A DNA stretch of 56,373 nucleotides. It comes from Alphaproteobacteria bacterium. GTDB lineage: Bacteria > Pseudomonadota > Alphaproteobacteria > GCA-2731375. The notes below the pieces were generated by a model. That model searched no databases and had not been told where the DNA came from. It was given only the letters and a program-made list of their open reading frames with translations. Where the stretch lies: positions 1-56,373 of the forward strand of contig JAJFGG010000094.1 of the NCBI GenBank assembly GCA_021776235.1, in the 5' to 3' direction. Each line of letters begins with the position of its first letter. The first letter of the stretch is position 1. Both the position numbers and the translations under genes were made by a program. Below, in pieces: positions 10,997 to 21,611 of this stretch.

Positions 10997-12391
10997 ATGA
11001 CCGACCGCGGCAATTCTCCTGCTAGCCGGGACATCGCCCACTACCTGCACCCCTATACAAACTTGGCGACCCACGAAATCACCGGCCCGCAAATCGTGAC
11101 CAAGGGCCGCGGCGTCTATGTCACGGACGAAAGCGGTAAGGAATATATTGAAGGTCTGGCTGGTCTTTGGTGCGCCTCGTTTGGTTTTGCGGAAGAAGAA
11201 CTGGTCAATGCCGCCACGGAGCAACTGCGCACTTTGCCGTACTATCATGGATTTGCCGGCAAATCCGTGCATCCAGCCATCGATCTGGCGGAAATACTTA
11301 AAGAGATCGCGCCGGTCGAATTTTCCAAGGTATTTTTTGCCAATTCGGGTTCGGAAGCCAACGATTCGGCCGTGAAAATGGTCTGGTATTTCAACAATGC
11401 CCGCGGCCAACCGAAAAAGAAAAAATTCATCTCGCGTCTGCGCGGTTATCACGGTGTAACCGTGGCAGCCGGCAGCCTGACCGGCCTGCCTTATGCCCAG
11501 GCCGATTTCGATCTGCCCCTGGATTTCGTGCGCCACACCATGACCCCGGATTATTACCGCGGTGCTGAAGCCGGTGAATCAGAGGAGGATTTTGCCTCGC
11601 GCTGCGCTCAGGCCCTGGAAGACATGATCCTCGAAGAGGGACCGGAAACCGTGGCTGCTTTCATCGCCGAACCGGTGATGGGCGCGGGTGGCGTTATCCT
11701 GCCGCCAAAAACCTATTTTGAAAAAATCCAAGCGGTTCTGAAAAAATACGATGTCCTGATGATCGCGGATGAGGTGATTTGCGGTTTTGGCCGGACAGGG
11801 AATATGTGGGGCAGCCAGACCTTTGGTATTCAGCCGGACATACTGACCTGTGCCAAGGCGCTGTCATCGGCCTACCTGCCAATCTCAGCGGTCATGATCA
11901 GCGAGGAGATCTACCAGGGTCTGCGCGGCAATTCGGAAAAACTGGGCCTGTTTGGCCATGGCTATACCTATTCCGCGCATCCGGCATGCGCGGCGGTGGC
12001 CTTGCGGACGCAACAATTGATGCAGGAGCGGGATATAATTGGCCATGTACGGGCCATGGCGCCGCAGTTCCAGAAACGAATTGCGGCCCTGGGGTCCCAT
12101 GAAATGGTTGGTGACGCCCGCGGCGTTGGCCTGATCGGCGCGGTGGAAATCGTTGCCGATAAAGAGACCAAGCGATCCTATGACCCGGCCGCCAAGGTTG
12201 GCGCCCTGGTGCAAAATGCAGCCCAGGAACATGGCCTGATTACACGCGCCATGCCAGGTGATATTCTGGGTTTCTGTCCACCCCTGATCATTTCGTCCGC
12301 CGAAATTGACGAAATGTTTGACCGTTTCACCCGGGCGCTGGACGAGGTCGCCATGCAGTTGAAACAGCAGGGCGCGACAGCGGCGCAGTAG
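10997..12391 (+). CDS. Class III PLP-dependent aminotransferase
   Basis: The 464-residue enzyme transfers an amino group, typically between an omega-amino compound and pyruvate. Features are the cofactor phosphate-binding NSGSEAND (117-123), YHG (151-153), the aspartate in MIADEVICGFGRTG (Asp258) and the PLP lysine in TCAKALSS (Lys287). The LWCASFGF opening and HPYTN segment are typical of the taurine/beta-alanine/putrescine-pyruvate branch; the exact amine is not readable. AAGGA at 10983-10987 supports the ATG at 10997. The gene is monocistronic: it is divergent from the acyl-CoA dehydrogenases and convergent with the cysteine-repeat gene. Confidence 0.9.
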   Translation: MTDRGNSPASRDIAHYLHPYTNLATHEITGPQIVTKGRGVYVTDESGKEYIEGLAGLWCASFGFAEEELVNAATEQLRTLPYYHGFAGKSVHPAIDLAEILKEIAPVEFSKVFFANSGSEANDSAVKMVWYFNNARGQPKKKKFISRLRGYHGVTVAAGSLTGLPYAQADFDLPLDFVRHTMTPDYYRGAEAGESEEDFASRCAQALEDMILEEGPETVAAFIAEPVMGAGGVILPPKTYFEKIQAVLKKYDVLMIADEVICGFGRTGNMWGSQTFGIQPDILTCAKALSSAYLPISAVMISEEIYQGLRGNSEKLGLFGHGYTYSAHPACAAVALRTQQLMQERDIIGHVRAMAPQFQKRIAALGSHEMVGDARGVGLIGAVEIVADKETKRSYDPAAKVGALVQNAAQEHGLITRAMPGDILGFCPPLIISSAEIDEMFDRFTRALDEVAMQLKQQGATAAQ

Positions 12392-12545: not shown

Positions 12546-12583
12546 GCTAAAACGAAACCCGCCGCGCCATGAGGCGCGGCGGG
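12546..12583 (-). terminator. Strong terminator of the cysteine-repeat gene
   Basis: A perfect 11-bp inverted repeat (CCCGCCGCGCC at 12558-12568 and its complement at 12573-12583) with a four-base loop is followed on the minus strand by a T-rich stretch GTTTCGTTTTAGC. It lies about 40 bases after the stop of the small gene at 12623. A 12-bp palindrome GTCGCATGCGAC sits between them at 12590-12601. Confidence 0.8.
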
Positions 12584-12622
12584 ATCAGTGTCGCATGCGA
12601 CGCTTTTGGTCTTACCTCGGGC

Positions 12623-12865
12623 CTACTTCTTTTTCGCGGCGCAGGGATTGCAGGGACTGCAAGCCTTTTTCGCGGCGCAGGGATTGCAACCGCCACAGCC
12701 TTTTTTCGCGGCACAGGGATTGCAGGCCTTTTTCGCGGCGCAGGGATTGCAGGCTTTCTTGGCTCCACAAGCCGCCAGTGCGCTTGGCAGGGTGGCAGTC
12801 GCGGTCATGGCGGCAATGGCCACGGAGCCTAGAATGGTTTTGATTTTCGCGGTCGGGTTCGACAT
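12623..12865 (-). CDS. Exported cysteine-repeat mini-protein
   Basis: The 80-residue product has a typical signal peptide (lysines at 7 and 9, hydrophobic core 11-30, cleavage likely after SALA), then a mature part of only about 50 residues built from repeated CNPCAAKKA units. It has 11 cysteines (33, 39, 42, 48, 51, 57, 60, 63, 69, 72, 75) and no aromatic residue after the signal. I set the start at ATG 12865 because GGGAGG lies eight bases upstream; a longer frame to 12952 lacks this. A strong terminator follows. Lone cysteine pairs alternating with Ala-Lys suggest metal binding or substrate status for a peptide-modifying enzyme, such as the DUF692/MNIO group, but no such enzyme is in the window. 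The family is unrecognised. Confidence 0.8.
   Translation of the reverse strand: MSNPTAKIKTILGSVAIAAMTATATLPSALAACGAKKACNPCAAKKACNPCAAKKGCGGCNPCAAKKACSPCNPCAAKKK
12630..12751 (-). repeat. Four in-frame 23-bp direct repeats
   Basis: The 23-base unit TTTTTCGCGGCGCAGGGATTGCA (plus-strand reading; first 20 bases TTTTTCGCGGCGCAGGGATT) occurs at 12630-12652, 12666-12688, 12702-12724 (one change) and 12729-12751. Spacing is 36, 36 and 27 bases, all multiples of three, so copy number can change without a frameshift in the cysteine-repeat protein. Confidence 0.9.
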
Positions 12866-12990
12866 AGAATGGGCCTCCCAGTCAGGATTATTGTCATCGT
12901 GCACCCGTAATCTGGCCATTTCCATGGGGCAAAGCCAATCAAATGCGATCACGAGAGCTTGAACACGGCTATCGCCCGCCGCGACAATTT

Positions 12991-13758
12991 CTAAAGGCTC
13001 ATACCGCCGTCGGCGTGAATGGTTTGACCGGTGATATAGGCCGCGTCCGGCGACAGTAAAAATTCCACCAACGCAGCGATTTCATCCGGTTGACCCAGGC
13101 GGCCGAGGGGGATGCGGGCGCTGGCCCGACGCCAATTTTCAGGGTCGAGGGCGGCATGCGCACCAGCCTGTTTCTGGATATAGCCGGGCGCGACGCAATT
13201 TACCGTCACGCTATATGGCGCCAGATCCACGGCCAGGGCGCGGGCCAGGGCTTCCAGCCCCGCCTTTGCTGCCGCGCTCGCCGGCATGGATACACCATCA
13301 AGCTGGAAACGATGGGCGACAAAGGACGAAACGGCTATTACCCGCCCGGCCGGTGCGGCCCGCAACAGGGGCATGGCGGCCCGGCAAAGACGATGAAACG
13401 CGCCTGGCATAGCCGCCAGGCTGTTGGCCAGACCGGCATCGTCAAGATCCGCCAACGGTGTTTTATTCGCGAAACCGGCGTTGGCGACAAGCCCATCCAA
13501 ATTACCATGCGCCGCCACCGCCGCGATTAATTTGTCCGCCACGGAGGCCTCGGCCAAATCACCAAGCAATATCTGGCTCTGCCCGCCGGCCGCCAGCACC
13601 GCTTCGGCCACCGTTTCGGCGCCGGCCCGATTGGCGCGGGTATGAACGAACAGACGGGTGCCCGGCTGGGCCAGCCGCAGGCACAGCGCCGCACCGATGC
13701 CGCTGGCGGCGCCGGTGACCAGAATGTTGCGGTTTGGCGCTTCAGACTGCGTGTTCAA
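12991..13758 (-). CDS. SDR-family oxidoreductase lacking the catalytic tyrosine
   Basis: The 255-residue protein has the Rossmann motif TGAASGIG (15-22), NAG, the active-site serine region AVSSF (143-147) and the usual end ITGQTIHADGG. At the YxxxK position it reads SAAAK (Ser161, Lys165), so the tyrosine that normally donates the proton is absent. The start is taken as TTG 13758 with AAGGAAAG six bases upstream; the open frame extends to 13884 without support. It may be inactive, use another residue, or bind NAD(P) for a regulatory role. It follows no obvious operon partner. Confidence 0.82.
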   Translation of the reverse strand: MNTQSEAPNRNILVTGAASGIGAALCLRLAQPGTRLFVHTRANRAGAETVAEAVLAAGGQSQILLGDLAEASVADKLIAAVAAHGNLDGLVANAGFANKTPLADLDDAGLANSLAAMPGAFHRLCRAAMPLLRAAPAGRVIAVSSFVAHRFQLDGVSMPASAAAKAGLEALARALAVDLAPYSVTVNCVAPGYIQKQAGAHAALDPENWRRASARIPLGRLGQPDEIAALVEFLLSPDAAYITGQTIHADGGMSL

Positions 13759-13928
13759 ATCGGCTTTCCTTGCGGTTGTTGTGGGTCTTCTCCCACAAGG
13801 GCAGTAACGCGCGGTGATGATGATCACTGACAATTTACCGGGCCTGGCTAGTCTAGCATTGCCCCAGGAATGACAAAGCGGCATTTACCAGATTCGGTGC
13901 CGGCAATTTTCGGAGTCGCTATTAGGTT

Positions 13929-15246: not shown

Positions 15247-18180
15247 ATGTCCGTGCAAGCCAAGGTTTTTACTATTGCCGCCGGCGACAGCTTTTCCGAC
15301 CGTTTGGTCGAGGGTTTGCTGCAACGTTTCGGCGGCGATCCCCTGACCTTGAATAGCGTCACCCTGTTGCTACCGACCCGGCGGGGCATGCGCGCGGTAA
15401 GGGACGGCTTTCTGCGCCAGACCGGCGGCCGCGCCATGCTGCTGCCTCGGATGTACGCCATCGGCGATGTGGACGAGGAAGAATTGCTGCTGGATCCCCT
15501 GTACGGGGACGATCTGTTCAGCCTGCCACCCGCGATCACGGCGCTGCGCCGACAGCTTTTGCTGTTGCATCTGATCGCCGGTCCCCGCGGCATAGACCCG
15601 GCACTGGCGGCCCCCTTGGCCCGGGAATTGGCCGAATTGTTGGACCGGCTGCAGACTGAGGATGTGCCGTTGTCGGCCCTGGATGACCTGGTGCCCGCCG
15701 ACCTGGCCGCTCATTGGCAGGAAACCTTGGAATTCCTGAGCCTTTTGGCCGCACCCTGGCAGGAATTGCTGGCCGTGGAAGGCTGCATGGACCCAGCCGC
15801 GCGGCGCAATGAGCTGCTGCACACCCAGGCGGACCGCTGGCGTCAATCGCCGCCGCAGGATCCCGTCATCGTGGCCGGCTCCACCGGTTCTATACCCGCC
15901 ACCGCTGCTCTGATCGCCGTTGTCGCGCATCTGCCCCAGGGCGCGGTGGTGCTGCCCGGTCTGGATAGCTTTGCTGACGAAGAGACCTGGGCCGCCGTGG
16001 ATCAAAGTCATGCTCAATTTGGCCTCAGGCAATTATTGCAACGGATCGGCGTGGATCGGGCAAACGTCAGGCCTTGGCTGCATAATAGCGAGGAAAGCCC
16101 GCGCCATCGTCTGATCCGCGAAACCCTGCGGCCGACCGAGACCACCGAACATTGGCGGAGATTACCCAGCTTGCCGGCGGCGGCGGCGGCGGGTTTGTTG
16201 CGGGTCGATTGCGCCAATCCCATCGAAGAAGCCAGTGTAATCGCCCTGTGTCTGCGCCAGGCCTTGGAGACACCAGAGCGGACCGCAGCACTGATCACCC
16301 CGGATCGCGGCTTGGCGCGCCGGGTGGCGGTGGAGTTGAAACGTTGGCGGATCGTGGTGGATGATTCCGCCGGCCAGCCCCTTGCCGCCACGCCGCCCGG
16401 CTCATTCCTGCGCCTGACGGCGGAGATGTTGGGCGGCGGCCTGGACCCCATCGATTTTCTGGCCACTCTGAAGCATCCCCTGGCGCAGGGCGGACGGGAC
16501 CCGGGGCTCCTGAAGGCCGCTGCGCGGGATATCGACCGTAATGTTCTGCGGGGCCCGCGTCCGGCGCCGGGCCTGGCCGGCCTGGCCGACGCGGCTGCAG
16601 GCGCGCGGCATCTGCCGGACCGGGCTATGGCGTTGCTCGATGATTTAACCAGGCATGGTACAGAGGTGCTGTCGTTTTGTGCGCGGCCCGAGGTGCATTT
16701 GGTGGATTTGCTATCCGCTCATGTGCGTTTCGCGGAATGGTTGGCGACGGATCCGGATGGCCGATGCCAGCTATGGGCCGGTGATGCAGGCGAGGCGGCC
16801 ATGCGCTTCATCGCCGATTTGTTGGCGGCCGGGGCCGGCCTGCCGGTTATGGCGGGCGCGGGCTATGCCACTCTGTTGAGCAGTTTGATGGTGGGGCAGG
16901 TGGTGCGGCCGGCTTTCGGCCTGCATCCGCGCCTGCATATTTGGGGGCCGCTGGAAGCACGCCTGCAGCAGGCCGATCTGGTGCTGCTGGGTGGGCTGAA
17001 TGAAGGCACTTGGCCGGCCGCGGCAGATGCCGACGCCTGGTTAAGCCGGCCCATGGCGGCCCGGTTGGGTCTGCCGGCGCCGGAGCGGCGGATTGGACTG
17101 GCGGCTCATGACTTTGCCCAGGCGGCCTGCGCCAACGAGGTGATTTTGACCCGTGCGGCAAAAGTGGAAGGCACCCCCACCGTGCCCTCGCGCTGGCTGT
17201 TGCGGCTGGAGCAGGTCTTGCAGAGCACCGGGTTGACGCTGGATCAAAAACTGCCCGCGGCATTGCACGCCTGGTCGGAACGCTTGGACGATGCCGGCCC
17301 GCCGCAACCCGTGGCAGCGCCTGAATGCCGGCCGCCCGTAGCGGCGCGGCCGCGGCGTATGTCCGTAACCCAGATAGAGACCTGGATCAGGGATCCTTAT
17401 GGGGTCTATGCGCGGCGTATTCTGGGCCTGCGCGCGCTGGACCCTATCGCCGCGGACCCCGGCGCGGCAGATTATGGTAATGCGGTGCATCATGCCCTGG
17501 AGCAATTTGCCGCTACCTATCCGGCGCAAATCCCGACCGGAAGAGAGGCCAAGACGGCTTTGCTGGCGTTTGGCCGGGAGGCCTTTGGCGAACTGTTAAC
17601 CCGTCCCGGTGTCCGCGCCTTCTGGTGGCCCCGTTTCCAACGCATAGCGACCTGGTTCCTGGCGCAGGAGGCTGAACGCCGTCCCGCCATTCTGCCTCTG
17701 GTGACCGAGGCCAAGGGCAGTCTGAGCCTGCCGGGCCCCGCAGGATCGTTCACACTGACGGCCATTGCCGACCGCATCGACCGCCTGGCGGATGGCGCCA
17801 TTAATATCATCGACTACAAGACCGGCGTGGTCCCCACCGAGGCCGAGTTGAAGCGGGGCCAGTCGCCCCAATTGCCCCTGGAAGCCGCCATAGCGTCCGC
17901 CGGCGGCTTTCCCGGTGTGCCGGTCGGTGCCGTGGCGACGTTGAGCTATTGGCGGATTTCCGGTGGCCGCGAGGCGGGCAAGATCAAGGATATTAAGGCC
18001 GATGGCAACGCCCTGGCCCAGGCCGCGCGAGAGGGCCTGCAAGCCCTGATCGCCGAGTTCGATGATCCCGCCACTGCCTATCTGGCGCGGCCCCGGCCGG
18101 CCATCGCGCCGCGCTTTTCCGACTACGACCATCTGGCCCGGATCAAGGAATGGTCCGCCGGTGGTCCGGGCGATTTCTAG
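15247..18180 (+). CDS. addB: Double-strand break repair protein AddB
   Basis: The 977-residue protein is the AddB subunit of the AddAB helicase-nuclease that resects double-strand ends and loads RecA, the alphaproteobacterial counterpart of RecBCD. It has the degenerate helicase N-terminus (LLPTRRGMRAVRDGF) and a C-terminal nuclease of the PD-(D/E)XK type with NIIDYKTG near residue 856. Length is normal for the alphaproteobacterial form. It starts four bases after murU, with a GGATTAGGGG ribosome site, and is followed after eight bases by addA, so both subunits are cotranscribed. Confidence 0.95.
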   Translation: MSVQAKVFTIAAGDSFSDRLVEGLLQRFGGDPLTLNSVTLLLPTRRGMRAVRDGFLRQTGGRAMLLPRMYAIGDVDEEELLLDPLYGDDLFSLPPAITALRRQLLLLHLIAGPRGIDPALAAPLARELAELLDRLQTEDVPLSALDDLVPADLAAHWQETLEFLSLLAAPWQELLAVEGCMDPAARRNELLHTQADRWRQSPPQDPVIVAGSTGSIPATAALIAVVAHLPQGAVVLPGLDSFADEETWAAVDQSHAQFGLRQLLQRIGVDRANVRPWLHNSEESPRHRLIRETLRPTETTEHWRRLPSLPAAAAAGLLRVDCANPIEEASVIALCLRQALETPERTAALITPDRGLARRVAVELKRWRIVVDDSAGQPLAATPPGSFLRLTAEMLGGGLDPIDFLATLKHPLAQGGRDPGLLKAAARDIDRNVLRGPRPAPGLAGLADAAAGARHLPDRAMALLDDLTRHGTEVLSFCARPEVHLVDLLSAHVRFAEWLATDPDGRCQLWAGDAGEAAMRFIADLLAAGAGLPVMAGAGYATLLSSLMVGQVVRPAFGLHPRLHIWGPLEARLQQADLVLLGGLNEGTWPAAADADAWLSRPMAARLGLPAPERRIGLAAHDFAQAACANEVILTRAAKVEGTPTVPSRWLLRLEQVLQSTGLTLDQKLPAALHAWSERLDDAGPPQPVAAPECRPPVAARPRRMSVTQIETWIRDPYGVYARRILGLRALDPIAADPGAADYGNAVHHALEQFAATYPAQIPTGREAKTALLAFGREAFGELLTRPGVRAFWWPRFQRIATWFLAQEAERRPAILPLVTEAKGSLSLPGPAGSFTLTAIADRIDRLADGAINIIDYKTGVVPTEAELKRGQSPQLPLEAAIASAGGFPGVPVGAVATLSYWRISGGREAGKIKDIKADGNALAQAAREGLQALIAEFDDPATAYLARPRPAIAPRFSDYDHLARIKEWSAGGPGDF

Positions 18181-18188
18181 CGGCCGCC

Positions 18189-21100
18189 ATGCGTGCGACC
18201 GACCACCAACGCCTGGCCGCCGATCCCGGTGTATCGGCCTGGGTAACGGCCTCTGCCGGTACCGGTAAGACCCACGTCCTGACCGACCGCGTGCTGCGCC
18301 TGTTGTTGCGGGACTGCCCGCCCGGGCGCATCCTCTGTCTGACCTTCACCAAGGCGGCGGCGGCGGAAATGGCCAACCGTCTGCATGAACGCCTTGGCGC
18401 CTGGGCCGTTGCCGGTGACGACGAACTGGCTCAGGCGCTGGCGGGTCTGACCGGATCACAGTCTGCGCCAGAGGAGATGAACCTGGCCCGGCGTCTGTTC
18501 GCACGGGTGCTGGATACGCCCGGCGGCTTGAAGGTCCAGACCATTCATTCGTTTTGCGAAGCCCTGTTGCGCCGCTTCCCGTTGGAGGCCCGGCTGGCGC
18601 CCCACTTCAAGGTCATGGAGGACCGGCAGGCGGCCCAAGTGCTGCAGGCCGCCCTGGAACAGGTGCTGGAACGCGACGCCGGAGAACCGGCGCCGTTGGT
18701 CGCGCAATTGATGGCCCTGGTCGATCAGCAGACTTTTGCCAATCTAATGGCCACCTTGTCGGCTGACCGTGGCCGTATGCAACGGCTGCTGGACCGGCCC
18801 GGCGGCATCGACAGCCTGCTGCAAGATGTCCGCCGGGCCCTTGGCTTGGCTGAGGGCGAGACCGAAGCCGCTATCCTGGCCGCGGCGGGGCGGGAGGAAC
18901 ATTTCGACGGTCCCGGTCTGGTTCGGATCGCCGAACTTATGTGCGATGGCGGCAAGAATGAAAGCCGCCATGGCCGGGCCATCGGCGATTGGCATGCCAC
19001 GCCCGCGAGCAGGGCGAACCAGTTCGACCACTATTTGGCGGCCTTTTTCACCGACAGCGGCCAGGGCACGCCATTTACCAGGCCCCTGACCAACAAGACC
19101 GCCGCCGCCATGCCGGAAGGGGCGGAAATTCTTGATCGGGAATGTGCCCGCCTGGAGCTGGTCCGGCAACGGCGAAACCCGGCGCGCGTTGCCGCCGCCA
19201 CCGAATTGTTGTTGCGCCTGGGGGCGCAACTCATGGCGGCTTACGCCTTGGAAAAACAACGCCAGGCGCTGTTGGACTATGACGATTTGGTGCTGAAAGC
19301 GGGTTTCCTGTTGTCGCATGGGGCCAGTACCGATTGGGTGCTCTACAAACTGGACGGCGGCCTGGAGCACATTCTGATCGACGAGGCGCAGGATACCAGT
19401 CCGGAACAATGGCAAGTGGTACAGACCCTGGCCGATGAGTTTTTTACCGGCGAGGGAGCCTACGAAGACGGTGATGAAAGCGCCATGGCCACGGGCCGGA
19501 CCCTGTTCGCGGTTGGCGATGTAAAGCAGTCAATATACAGCTTCCAACGCGCCGACCCGGCCGCCTTTCAGGCCATGCGCAATCATTTCGCGGCCCGCAT
19601 CGGGGCCGCCAAGCGGCGCTGGCAACCGGTTGAGTTGGCCTTGTCGTTCCGCTCCACGCCGGCGGTATTGGAGGCTGTCAACGCCATCTTTGCCGATCCC
19701 CTGGCCAGCGACGGCCTGATCTTTGGTAATCATGGGGCTATCCGCCATATCCCAAATCGCGCCAGTGAGGCCGGGCTGGTAGAAATCTGGCCAACAGAAC
19801 AGCCCCCCGAAACAGAGGAACATCCCGCGTGGGCGCTGCCGACAAAACAGCTTTACCTTGACAGCCCGGTGGCCCGCCTGGCCGATCGTATCGCGGTTCA
19901 GATCGGCCAATGGCTGGAACAAAAAGAAATGCTGGTGGCCAAGGGCCGGCCGATTGGCGCCGGCGATATTCTGATTCTGGTGCAGCGCCGTGCGACCTTT
20001 GTCGAAACTATGGTGCGGGCCTTGAAACGCCGTAACATTGCCGTGGCCGGGGTCGACAGAATGGTCCTGAGCGAACAGCTGGCGGTCATGGACCTGATCG
20101 CCCTGGGCCGCTTTCTGCTGCTGCCGGAGGATGATTTGAACTTGGCCGTGGTCCTGAAAGGACCACTGGTTGGGTGGGACGACGAGCAATTGTTCGCTTT
20201 GGCACATGGCCGCCAGGCCAGCCTATGGGCCGCACTGAGAGAGCGGCCGGAGGCGGCCGCCTACCAGACCCTGGCCGCATTATTGGCGCAGGTTGATTTC
20301 AAGCCGCCATTCGAACTTTACGCCGAACTGCTGGGCGCCGGCGGCGGGCGACGGCAAATTCTGGCCCGCCTGGGCCAGGATGCCAACGATCCGATTGACG
20401 AGTTCCTCGATTTGGCTTTGTCCTACGAACGGGATCATGCCCCCAGCCTGGAGGGCTTTTTGCATTGGCTGGAAAGGGGCGAAACCGAGATCAAGCGGGA
20501 CCTTGAACAAGGCCAGGACCAGGTTCGGGTAATGACCGTACATGGCGCCAAGGGCCTGGAAGCACCCATCGTCTTTCTCGCCGATACGGTTCGGGTGCCA
20601 GACAAGACACCGGCACTGCTGTGGCCCGCAGGTGATGCCGGCGGCAGCGATGACTCCGGGATTGGCGGGCCGGCGCCCCTGTGGGCGCCGATCCGTGCGA
20701 TGGAGGAAAGGGTGATACAGCAGGCCCGTACCGATGCGGAACAGGCCCGGGACCGCGAATACCGCCGCCTGTTCTATGTCGCCCTGACCCGGGCGGCGGA
20801 CCGGTTGTATATCTGCGGCTTTGAGGGCAAAAACGGGCGAAAGGCGCATTGCTGGTACGATATGGCCTGGCGCGCCCTGGCCGCCCTGCCTGAAATAACC
20901 AAGCCGGCGGAACTGGCCGGTGGTATGCGCCTGCGTAGTGACCAGGCCAAGGCGCCGCCCGAGCGGCAGGCTCCAGTCAAGCCAGAACGCCAAAGCTTGC
21001 CCGATTGGGCCAGCCGGCCGGCGCCCACGGAACCGGTTCCACCCCGGCCATTGGCCCCGTCGCGTCCGGAAGAAGCGGAACCCAGCGTTGCCAGTCCTCT

Positions 21101-21611
21101 GGCCGATGGCGGCCAGGCCCGATTTCAACGGGGCAACCATATCCACCGCCTGTTGCAGACCCTTCCGGACCATGAAGAAGCGCGGCGCGAGGCCGCCGCC
21201 GCCCGCTATCTGGCCATGCCTGCGCATGTCATTGCCCCGGCGCAACAGCACGAGATCCTGGCCGAGACCATGGCGGTTCTGCGGCATCCGGACTTCGCTC
21301 CGATCTTTGGTCCGGGGTCCCGGGCCGAAGTCCCTTTGACAGCTCTGTTGTCCGGGCGGGTGATCAGCGGCCAGGTTGATCGCGTGCTGATTACCGATTC
21401 GGAAATTCTGGTGATTGACTATAAAACCAACCGCCCGCCACCCGTTAAAGTGGCAGAAGTAGATCCGGCGTACTTGCGACAATTGGCCAACTACCGCGCT
21501 GCATTAATGGAAATTTACCCTGGTAAAACAGTGCGTTGTGCGCTGTTATGGACCGATGGGCCAAATCTGATGGCCATTGATCAGGCTATTTTATCTGCCT
21601 ATGCGCCTTGA
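18189..21611 (+). CDS. addA: Double-strand break repair helicase AddA
   Basis: The 1140-residue UvrD-type helicase-nuclease has Walker A ASAGTGKT (21-28), TFTKAAAAEM, the Walker B equivalent LIDEAQDTSPEQW, motif VTVHGAKGLEAPIVFL-like helicase region and a C-terminal nuclease with VIDYKTN near residue 1075. It unwinds and cuts DNA ends with AddB. ATG 18189 is preferred because it lies just after the addB stop and gives a normal N-terminus; a 13-residue longer start at 18150 overlaps addB. About 120 bases then separate it from trxA. Confidence 0.95.
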   Translation: MRATDHQRLAADPGVSAWVTASAGTGKTHVLTDRVLRLLLRDCPPGRILCLTFTKAAAAEMANRLHERLGAWAVAGDDELAQALAGLTGSQSAPEEMNLARRLFARVLDTPGGLKVQTIHSFCEALLRRFPLEARLAPHFKVMEDRQAAQVLQAALEQVLERDAGEPAPLVAQLMALVDQQTFANLMATLSADRGRMQRLLDRPGGIDSLLQDVRRALGLAEGETEAAILAAAGREEHFDGPGLVRIAELMCDGGKNESRHGRAIGDWHATPASRANQFDHYLAAFFTDSGQGTPFTRPLTNKTAAAMPEGAEILDRECARLELVRQRRNPARVAAATELLLRLGAQLMAAYALEKQRQALLDYDDLVLKAGFLLSHGASTDWVLYKLDGGLEHILIDEAQDTSPEQWQVVQTLADEFFTGEGAYEDGDESAMATGRTLFAVGDVKQSIYSFQRADPAAFQAMRNHFAARIGAAKRRWQPVELALSFRSTPAVLEAVNAIFADPLASDGLIFGNHGAIRHIPNRASEAGLVEIWPTEQPPETEEHPAWALPTKQLYLDSPVARLADRIAVQIGQWLEQKEMLVAKGRPIGAGDILILVQRRATFVETMVRALKRRNIAVAGVDRMVLSEQLAVMDLIALGRFLLLPEDDLNLAVVLKGPLVGWDDEQLFALAHGRQASLWAALRERPEAAAYQTLAALLAQVDFKPPFELYAELLGAGGGRRQILARLGQDANDPIDEFLDLALSYERDHAPSLEGFLHWLERGETEIKRDLEQGQDQVRVMTVHGAKGLEAPIVFLADTVRVPDKTPALLWPAGDAGGSDDSGIGGPAPLWAPIRAMEERVIQQARTDAEQARDREYRRLFYVALTRAADRLYICGFEGKNGRKAHCWYDMAWRALAALPEITKPAELAGGMRLRSDQAKAPPERQAPVKPERQSLPDWASRPAPTEPVPPRPLAPSRPEEAEPSVASPLADGGQARFQRGNHIHRLLQTLPDHEEARREAAAARYLAMPAHVIAPAQQHEILAETMAVLRHPDFAPIFGPGSRAEVPLTALLSGRVISGQVDRVLITDSEILVIDYKTNRPPPVKVAEVDPAYLRQLANYRAALMEIYPGKTVRCALLWTDGPNLMAIDQAILSAYAP

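Follow-up and report, generated by a model that had tools for sequence, protein, structure and literature searches.

The short gene at positions 12,623–12,865 (minus strand) of the window, the whole 56,373-nucleotide stretch of alphaproteobacterial DNA analysed here, encodes an 80-residue peptide that by its sequence belongs to a widespread, apparently undescribed family of exported cysteine-repeat proteins, whose members, seen mainly in Alphaproteobacteria, stand alone or form fusions with a cytochrome P460-like domain. A genetic partnership between this cysteine-repeat peptide and DUF6969 (PF22308) is well supported by comparative genomics, and the peptide probably handles metal or sulfur with a partner enzyme of its own.

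The coding sequence runs from an ATG (12,865–12,863) to a TAG stop codon (12,625–12,623), and a plus-strand reading of the same interval was rejected. Residues 1–31, MSNPTAKIKTILGSVAIAAMTATATLPSALA (12,773–12,865, minus strand), can be read directly as a Sec signal peptide, as judged by eye and with a simple rule, and are near-identical in nine sequences of the genus. Cleavage would fall between ALA and AC, giving a mature part of 49 residues, ACGAKKACNPCAAKKACNPCAAKKGCGGCNPCAAKKACSPCNPCAAKKK (12,626–12,772, minus strand), which carries CNPC-AAKK units and contains all 11 cysteines of the precursor, with four CNPC units, CGGC and CSPC. An earlier sequence-only reading had described a secreted 50-residue peptide with this pattern; the signal peptide and the 11 cysteines in CNPC-AAKK units are present, and the length is corrected to 49 residues. 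The four direct repeats reported there as 23-bp units form a single family (D1, 12,615–12,751) with copies of 38 nt as extended by the repeat-finding tool, the other three sharing 95, 74 and 71% identity with the reference copy. Their spacings of 36, 36 and 27 nt are all multiples of three, as had been stated, and the repeats are in frame.

The gene has its own expression signals, again as first proposed. The ribosome binding site GGGAGG (12,874–12,879, minus strand) lies eight bases 5′ of the ATG, and its GGAGGC is invariant in ten aligned leaders. An intrinsic terminator (12,558–12,583, minus strand) consists of an 11-pair all-GC stem followed by the T-rich tail TTTCGTTTTA, and the 106 nt across the gene end fold with −47.6 kcal/mol (z −2.45). 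Further upstream, a block of about 54 bp, TCAAG..CTCGTGATCGCA..TGATTGGC..GGCCA (12,909–12,962, minus strand), is kept in ten leaders, whereas the remaining leader sequence varies. Because it is conserved without a convincing RNA fold, this block is probably a promoter or operator. An RNA element was rejected, since the consensus fold reached only −3.8 kcal/mol with compensatory change in one of eight pairs, and an Rfam search of the region returned only sub-threshold matches. A role as a regulon site was also rejected: the sole exact site in the genome is that of the peptide gene itself and the next has two mismatches. With up to three mismatches, the pattern occurs at 13 sites in the genome against two for a control pattern.

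The gene is flanked by a convergent class III aminotransferase (10,997–12,391, plus strand) and, upstream, by a short-chain dehydrogenase (12,991–13,884, minus strand). At the ten orthologous places besides the window, both neighbours are present in six cases and one in three, and the tenth lies at a contig end. Despite this synteny, they are not thought to be part of the peptide system. A scan of ten window genes surrounding the peptide gave no pointer to a metal. Elsewhere in the window (15,247–21,611), two adjoining genes carry PD-(D/E)XK nuclease and UvrD-helicase domains and are presumably AddB and AddA.

Peptide matches were found in all 11 genomes of the genus that were searched (G000–G010, ten besides the source genome), including one orthologue at a contig end (G005) and one whose repeat part reads as N (G008, locus L051). 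The nine readable sequences range from 47 to 90 residues, with 3–12 cysteines and 1–4 CNPC units, showing that the array expands and contracts; a difference in repeat number between strains had been named as a point to check, and it is seen here among species. Eight sequences compared over their first 33 codons (a further one being omitted for an insertion, one for N and one for its contig-end position) gave a pooled dN of 0.062 and dS of 0.70, a dN/dS of 0.089 that indicates strong purifying selection. Together with the open frame and the genus orthologues, these comparisons confirm that this is a real, conserved protein-coding gene.

The source genome encodes three paralogues of 359–434 residues (contigs C3, C140 and C82), in which long CNPC-type arrays precede a Cytochrome_P460 domain (PF16694; 31.4, 28.7 and 28.8 bits against a cut-off of 27). 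The window peptide had no PF16694 match in Pfam. Across 20 aligned P460 domains the CxxCH motif is invariant; with regard to the haem–lysine cross-link, invariant lysines exist. Compared with cytochrome P460 itself, these proteins have an extra cysteine-repeat arm, and one solved relative was found (E 0.00099). A fourth P460-type domain in the source genome (G000:C20:10523–11011, in a 229-residue frame) has no repeat match. A scan of genome contigs with the repeat alignment A1 returned at least 28 loci, whose titles read Alphaproteobacteria, with one given just as ‘Proteobacteria’; we take their genus names to belong to the Alphaproteobacteria. The related peptides sought by the earlier reading thus exist in many genera, and among the A1 loci listed some are stand-alone peptides, some are P460 fusions and some have both adjoining. 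P460 domains of this type (alignment A4, E ≤ 1e-20) occur in 53 of 385 genomes of the class.

In three genomes (G110:C3, G218:C10 and G307:C18) the A1 match lies between the two halves of a P460 domain within one frame, near position 90 of the domain, suggesting that the haem domain tolerates a cysteine-rich loop. A second kind of haem fusion is found in a genome outside the class (L160, 3865–4713): its NPC repeat arms enclose a cytochrome c domain of the SoxA/TsdA type (PF21342, E 6e-10), and the gene lies next to DUF6969. In the proteins tested, the cysteine repeat received no Pfam or NCBIfam name, and a zf-CXXC assignment (PF02008) of the window peptide was rejected as a low-complexity match (14.5 bits against a cut-off of 26.5, E 0.037). 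A tblastn search of plasmids with the peptide gave no match. Literature searches in one open collection on P460 with cysteine-rich repeats, CNPC, FGE/copper/RiPP and S. meliloti sulfur/copper gave, by title among the matches listed, no paper on this family.

DUF6969 emerged as the partner from the genes next to the repeats. Clustering of neighbour genes placed it in 14 of 33 repeat loci, and tblastn detected it in 15 of 47 loci, some of which duplicate the same places, and an FGE-sulfatase family protein in nine of the 47; the partner gene scores 278.5 bits against PF22308 (cut-off 27). In the 385 class genomes, the repeat and DUF6969 were found together in 41, the repeat only in three, DUF6969 only in 49 and neither in 292. 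DUF6969 is thus present in 41 of 44 repeat-bearing genomes versus 49 of 341 others (90/385 overall; Fisher 1.9e-26, ignoring shared ancestry), and 21 of the 22 repeat-bearing families, counted by hand from tables, also have it. The two lie within 3 kb of each other in 26 genomes. Repeats were called with A1 at E ≤ 1e-6, with up to 14 candidates scored per genome, and the resulting table is an undercount, as the ‘A1-negative’ loci L095, L097, L109 and L115 carry NPC repeats. It used 70 of 92 repeat rows, the omitted rows coming from genomes already counted, so that all 44 genomes are in. DUF6969 occurs in 11 of 319 genomes drawn from across the phylum and is absent from all 14 well-known control genomes, and a search of phages for it gave no match.

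The FGE-like gene follows the same distribution in part. Its subfamily (alignment A3, E ≤ 1e-50) was detected in 32 class genomes; 30 of these also encode DUF6969 and 24 carry the repeat (Fisher 5.4e-19 and 1.4e-19, respectively, both ignoring shared ancestry), and it lies within 1.5 kb of DUF6969 in 27 genomes. It was not found in 20 of the 44 repeat genomes. In the source genome, contig C140 carries the DUF6969 and FGE genes next to a P460-fused paralogue; the window peptide is not beside them and would accordingly be served in trans.

Of the 11 genus genomes, 10 encode DUF6969, the copies in G007 and G008 being broken or partial; 10 have P460 domains and nine the FGE subfamily, which is absent also from the fragmented genome G008. 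The earlier reading had named a linked DUF692-type (MNIO, PF05114) or other modifying enzyme as something to look for. A specific partner family does exist, but it is DUF6969: an MNIO gene is present in one of the 11 genomes, the source genome, where it lies on another contig (G000:C122:52774–53556), and none was found in the other ten. G003 is the sole genome of the 11 with no match to DUF6969, FGE or P460. Its peptide gene is in place and retains the leader block, the ribosome site and a hairpin resembling a terminator, and encodes 47 residues with one CNPC unit. This joint loss with a shortened peptide matches what dependence on the partner would predict, in a single metagenome-assembled genome (96% complete, 7% contaminated) in which assembly may have collapsed tandem repeats.

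The partnership was also approached from the side of DUF6969, starting from nine plasmid loci and from loci of 39 class genomes, out of the 49 that have DUF6969 but no A1 match (L130, from an A1-positive genome, was omitted). The rule applied, which was drawn up after examples had been seen, called for a signal-like stretch, at least five cysteines making up at least 5% of residues, and a tripeptide around cysteine occurring at least three times, within 3 kb. Such peptides were found at 12 of 39 A1-negative loci and three of nine plasmid loci versus one of 27 controls (1/20 control stretches and 0/7 other window blocks; p 0.007, treating loci as independent), and loosening the start-codon limit left the counts unchanged. 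The rule returned nothing at 27 of the 39 A1-negative and six of the nine plasmid loci, that is, at more than half of the former, and it misses clear cases, including L107, L137 (where the frame overlaps DUF6969), L131, L134 and L138. Fifteen loci picked for their repeat (15/15) were excluded from the evidence, and of six further loci two (L160 and L164) conformed to the rule.

By eye, a cysteine-repeat peptide directly precedes or follows DUF6969 at seven of the nine plasmid loci, namely four related Sinorhizobium copies, Ciceribacter, Skermanella and Burkholderia glumae; the two Azospirillum plasmid loci have none by eye either. In Sinorhizobium meliloti 2011, pSymA and pSymB each carry the peptide gene immediately ahead of DUF6969. 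The repeat letters near DUF6969 vary (CGAC, CGAKAK, GCGGSHAGDCGG, CCAAEG, APCAAG, KCAPKC, NPCAAK) while DUF6969 stays, which argues that what the loci share is DUF6969 with an exported cysteine repeat rather than the CNPC letters.

The AlphaFold2 model of DUF6969 has a mean pLDDT of 89.5 and a pTM of 0.89. Foldseek returned no match to it at E ≤ 0.001 (best VIA-align Z 2.9 over 92 residues), which does not prove a new fold, and the sole PDB sequence match, a tRNA ligase (E 0.025), was set aside as chance-like. Among 63 loci, six histidines are conserved (59/62, 61/61, 61/61, 62/62, 62/62 and 63/63), and D57, D60, E84, N140 and R194 are also near-invariant; the six-histidine pattern resembles a metal site and may represent one. 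The one open literature collection searched returned no paper on DUF6969.

The FGE-fold neighbour matches PF03781 (E 3e-37, 129.1 bits against a cut-off of 23.3 at L059) and has a hydrophobic leader and, in 14 sequences, an invariant CGxC within GGSWDDKGCGxCRPAAR, whose flanks vary slightly. Other genes recur near the repeats or DUF6969. An unannotated exported protein of about 165 residues with a predicted cupredoxin-like fold is encoded at six of 47 loci, five of them distinct (L058 1950–2435, L062, L071, L072 and L074); its model is modest (pLDDT 66), with EfeO and nitrous oxide reductase as best matches. YeeE/YedE sulfur transporters lie near DUF6969 at eight of 63 loci (L060, L072, L074, L122, L123, L126, L133 and L138).

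We tentatively propose, at somewhat less than an even chance, a Sec-exported, bufferin-like peptide whose cysteines are modified or loaded by DUF6969. The precursor is made with its conserved signal peptide, and cytosolic DUF6969 would bind the cysteine repeats and modify or load them, a role suggested by linkage, co-occurrence and the one co-loss. After export, the FGE-fold protein with its CGxC, encoded beside DUF6969 in a subset of loci, may work on the same thiols in the periplasm. The mature array would then hold a thiophilic ligand, and we infer a soft metal or sulfur, with Cu(I) or another soft metal as the first candidate and sulfane sulfur as the second; in the fused paralogues the array would be held beside a c-type haem domain. 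Copper is hinted at by the cupredoxin-like exported neighbour and by the FGE family, described as cuproenzymes (PMC12452194). Sulfur is hinted at by YeeE, rhodanese, MsrB, the SoxA/TsdA-type fusion and thiol-redox genes. DUF6969 could also act as a chaperone or regulator instead of an enzyme. The original suggestion of a metal binder or modification substrate fits the related peptides and the linked partner family.

These sulfur-related genes give some weight to an alternative that we consider rather unlikely, in which the repeat is a periplasmic sulfane-sulfur or thiol-redox carrier, holding or handing on sulfur (as persulfide) or electrons. In S. medicae the gene order is rhodanese–YeeE–peptide–DUF6969, MsrB (SelR) is encoded at four of 47 loci, a DsbA-like gene lies near the C140 cluster, the B. 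glumae copy has thioredoxin and CcdA genes close by, and the L160 repeat flanks its SoxA/TsdA-type domain. Such genes are, however, missing at most loci, YeeE being present at eight of 63, and the scan of ten window genes turned up none of them.

A plain periplasmic metal buffer, in which an unmodified cysteine array binds Cu(I), Zn or another soft metal and DUF6969 maintains the thiols in reduced form or delivers the metal, is likewise unlikely. Eleven cysteines in 49 residues with lysine spacers recall an exported metallothionein, repeat number and letters drift among species as in a low-structure chelator, and the six DUF6969 histidines could carry metal; the cupredoxin-like neighbour points the same way. 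ECF sigma factors also lie nearby, with zf-HC2 in B. glumae or with NrsF in Skermanella, comparable to the sigma/NrsF genes in some Buf1 clusters (PMC12452194). Yet a conserved separate partner in 41 of 44 genomes exceeds what a chelator needs, and no metal transporter was present among the neighbour families that were clustered and named, some clusters being left unnamed.

It is very improbable that the repeat is a formylglycine substrate, with the FGE-fold protein oxidizing the first cysteine of CNPC as a CxP motif, although this protein belongs to the FGE/SUMF1 family by sequence, has two invariant cysteines in its C-terminal loop and adjoins DUF6969. The CGxC spacing is presumably unlike the catalytic cysteine pair of known FGEs, and the leader sequence is a further difference. 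A PDB search ranked ToxD, CalU17, SUMF2 and OvsA above true FGEs, with ToxD as the closest solved relative, and the NCBIfam matches (PvdO, EgtB and SenA) were all far below cut-off. FGE loci with CGAC or CGAKAK repeats (L094 and L110) have units without CxP, so a CxPxR-like target is not general, and the FGE gene is missing from many repeat genomes. Finally, a chance or decaying frame without a useful protein, as its orphan position and low complexity might suggest, can practically be dismissed given the low dN/dS, the conserved start, ribosome site and upstream block, and the matches in every genus genome searched.

The proposed DUF6969-served peptide resembles the bufferins (Buf1, which is DUF2282, and Buf2) and oxazolins, which are MNIO-modified RiPPs, in having a Sec signal on a cysteine-containing exported precursor, a dedicated partner gene and precursors encoded apart from the enzyme, as well as sigma/NrsF genes in some clusters and haem/FGE associations, one bufferin-type fusion with cytochrome c and FGE domains having been described (PMC12452194). 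In contrast, the window peptide has no DUF2282 match in Pfam, the partner of its family is DUF6969 and not an MNIO, and the repeat letters vary freely; P460 is not mentioned in the main text of the bufferin paper (PMC12452194). Since DUF2282 is lacking and MNIO is confined to a single genus genome, the peptide is, by analogy, bufferin-like in logic and not a bufferin by family. High cysteine density and plausible metal binding are shared with metallothioneins and other cysteine-rich metal stores, but this peptide is exported, repeat-built and accompanied by a partner gene, and no such family matched it in Pfam or NCBIfam.

A more far-reaching version of the proposal, which we regard as possible but doubtful, is that DUF6969 constitutes a new class of six-histidine metalloenzymes with an unrecognised fold, which would modify tandem-repeat cysteines before Sec export and define, independently of MNIO, a second lineage of exported RiPPs that handle metal or sulfur in Proteobacteria, with some members grafted onto haem domains (P460 and SoxA/TsdA-type cytochrome c). 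These results provide a biological context for DUF6969 and define a set of exported cysteine-repeat proteins, the tested members of which carry no Pfam or NCBIfam repeat name, and the pSymA and pSymB pairs of S. meliloti 2011 make the question testable in a standard strain. If DUF6969 is an enzyme, it would represent a new peptide-modification chemistry, the kind itself being new; if it is not, the family would represent a periplasmic buffer of a new kind, for metal or sulfur, partly tied to haem domains.
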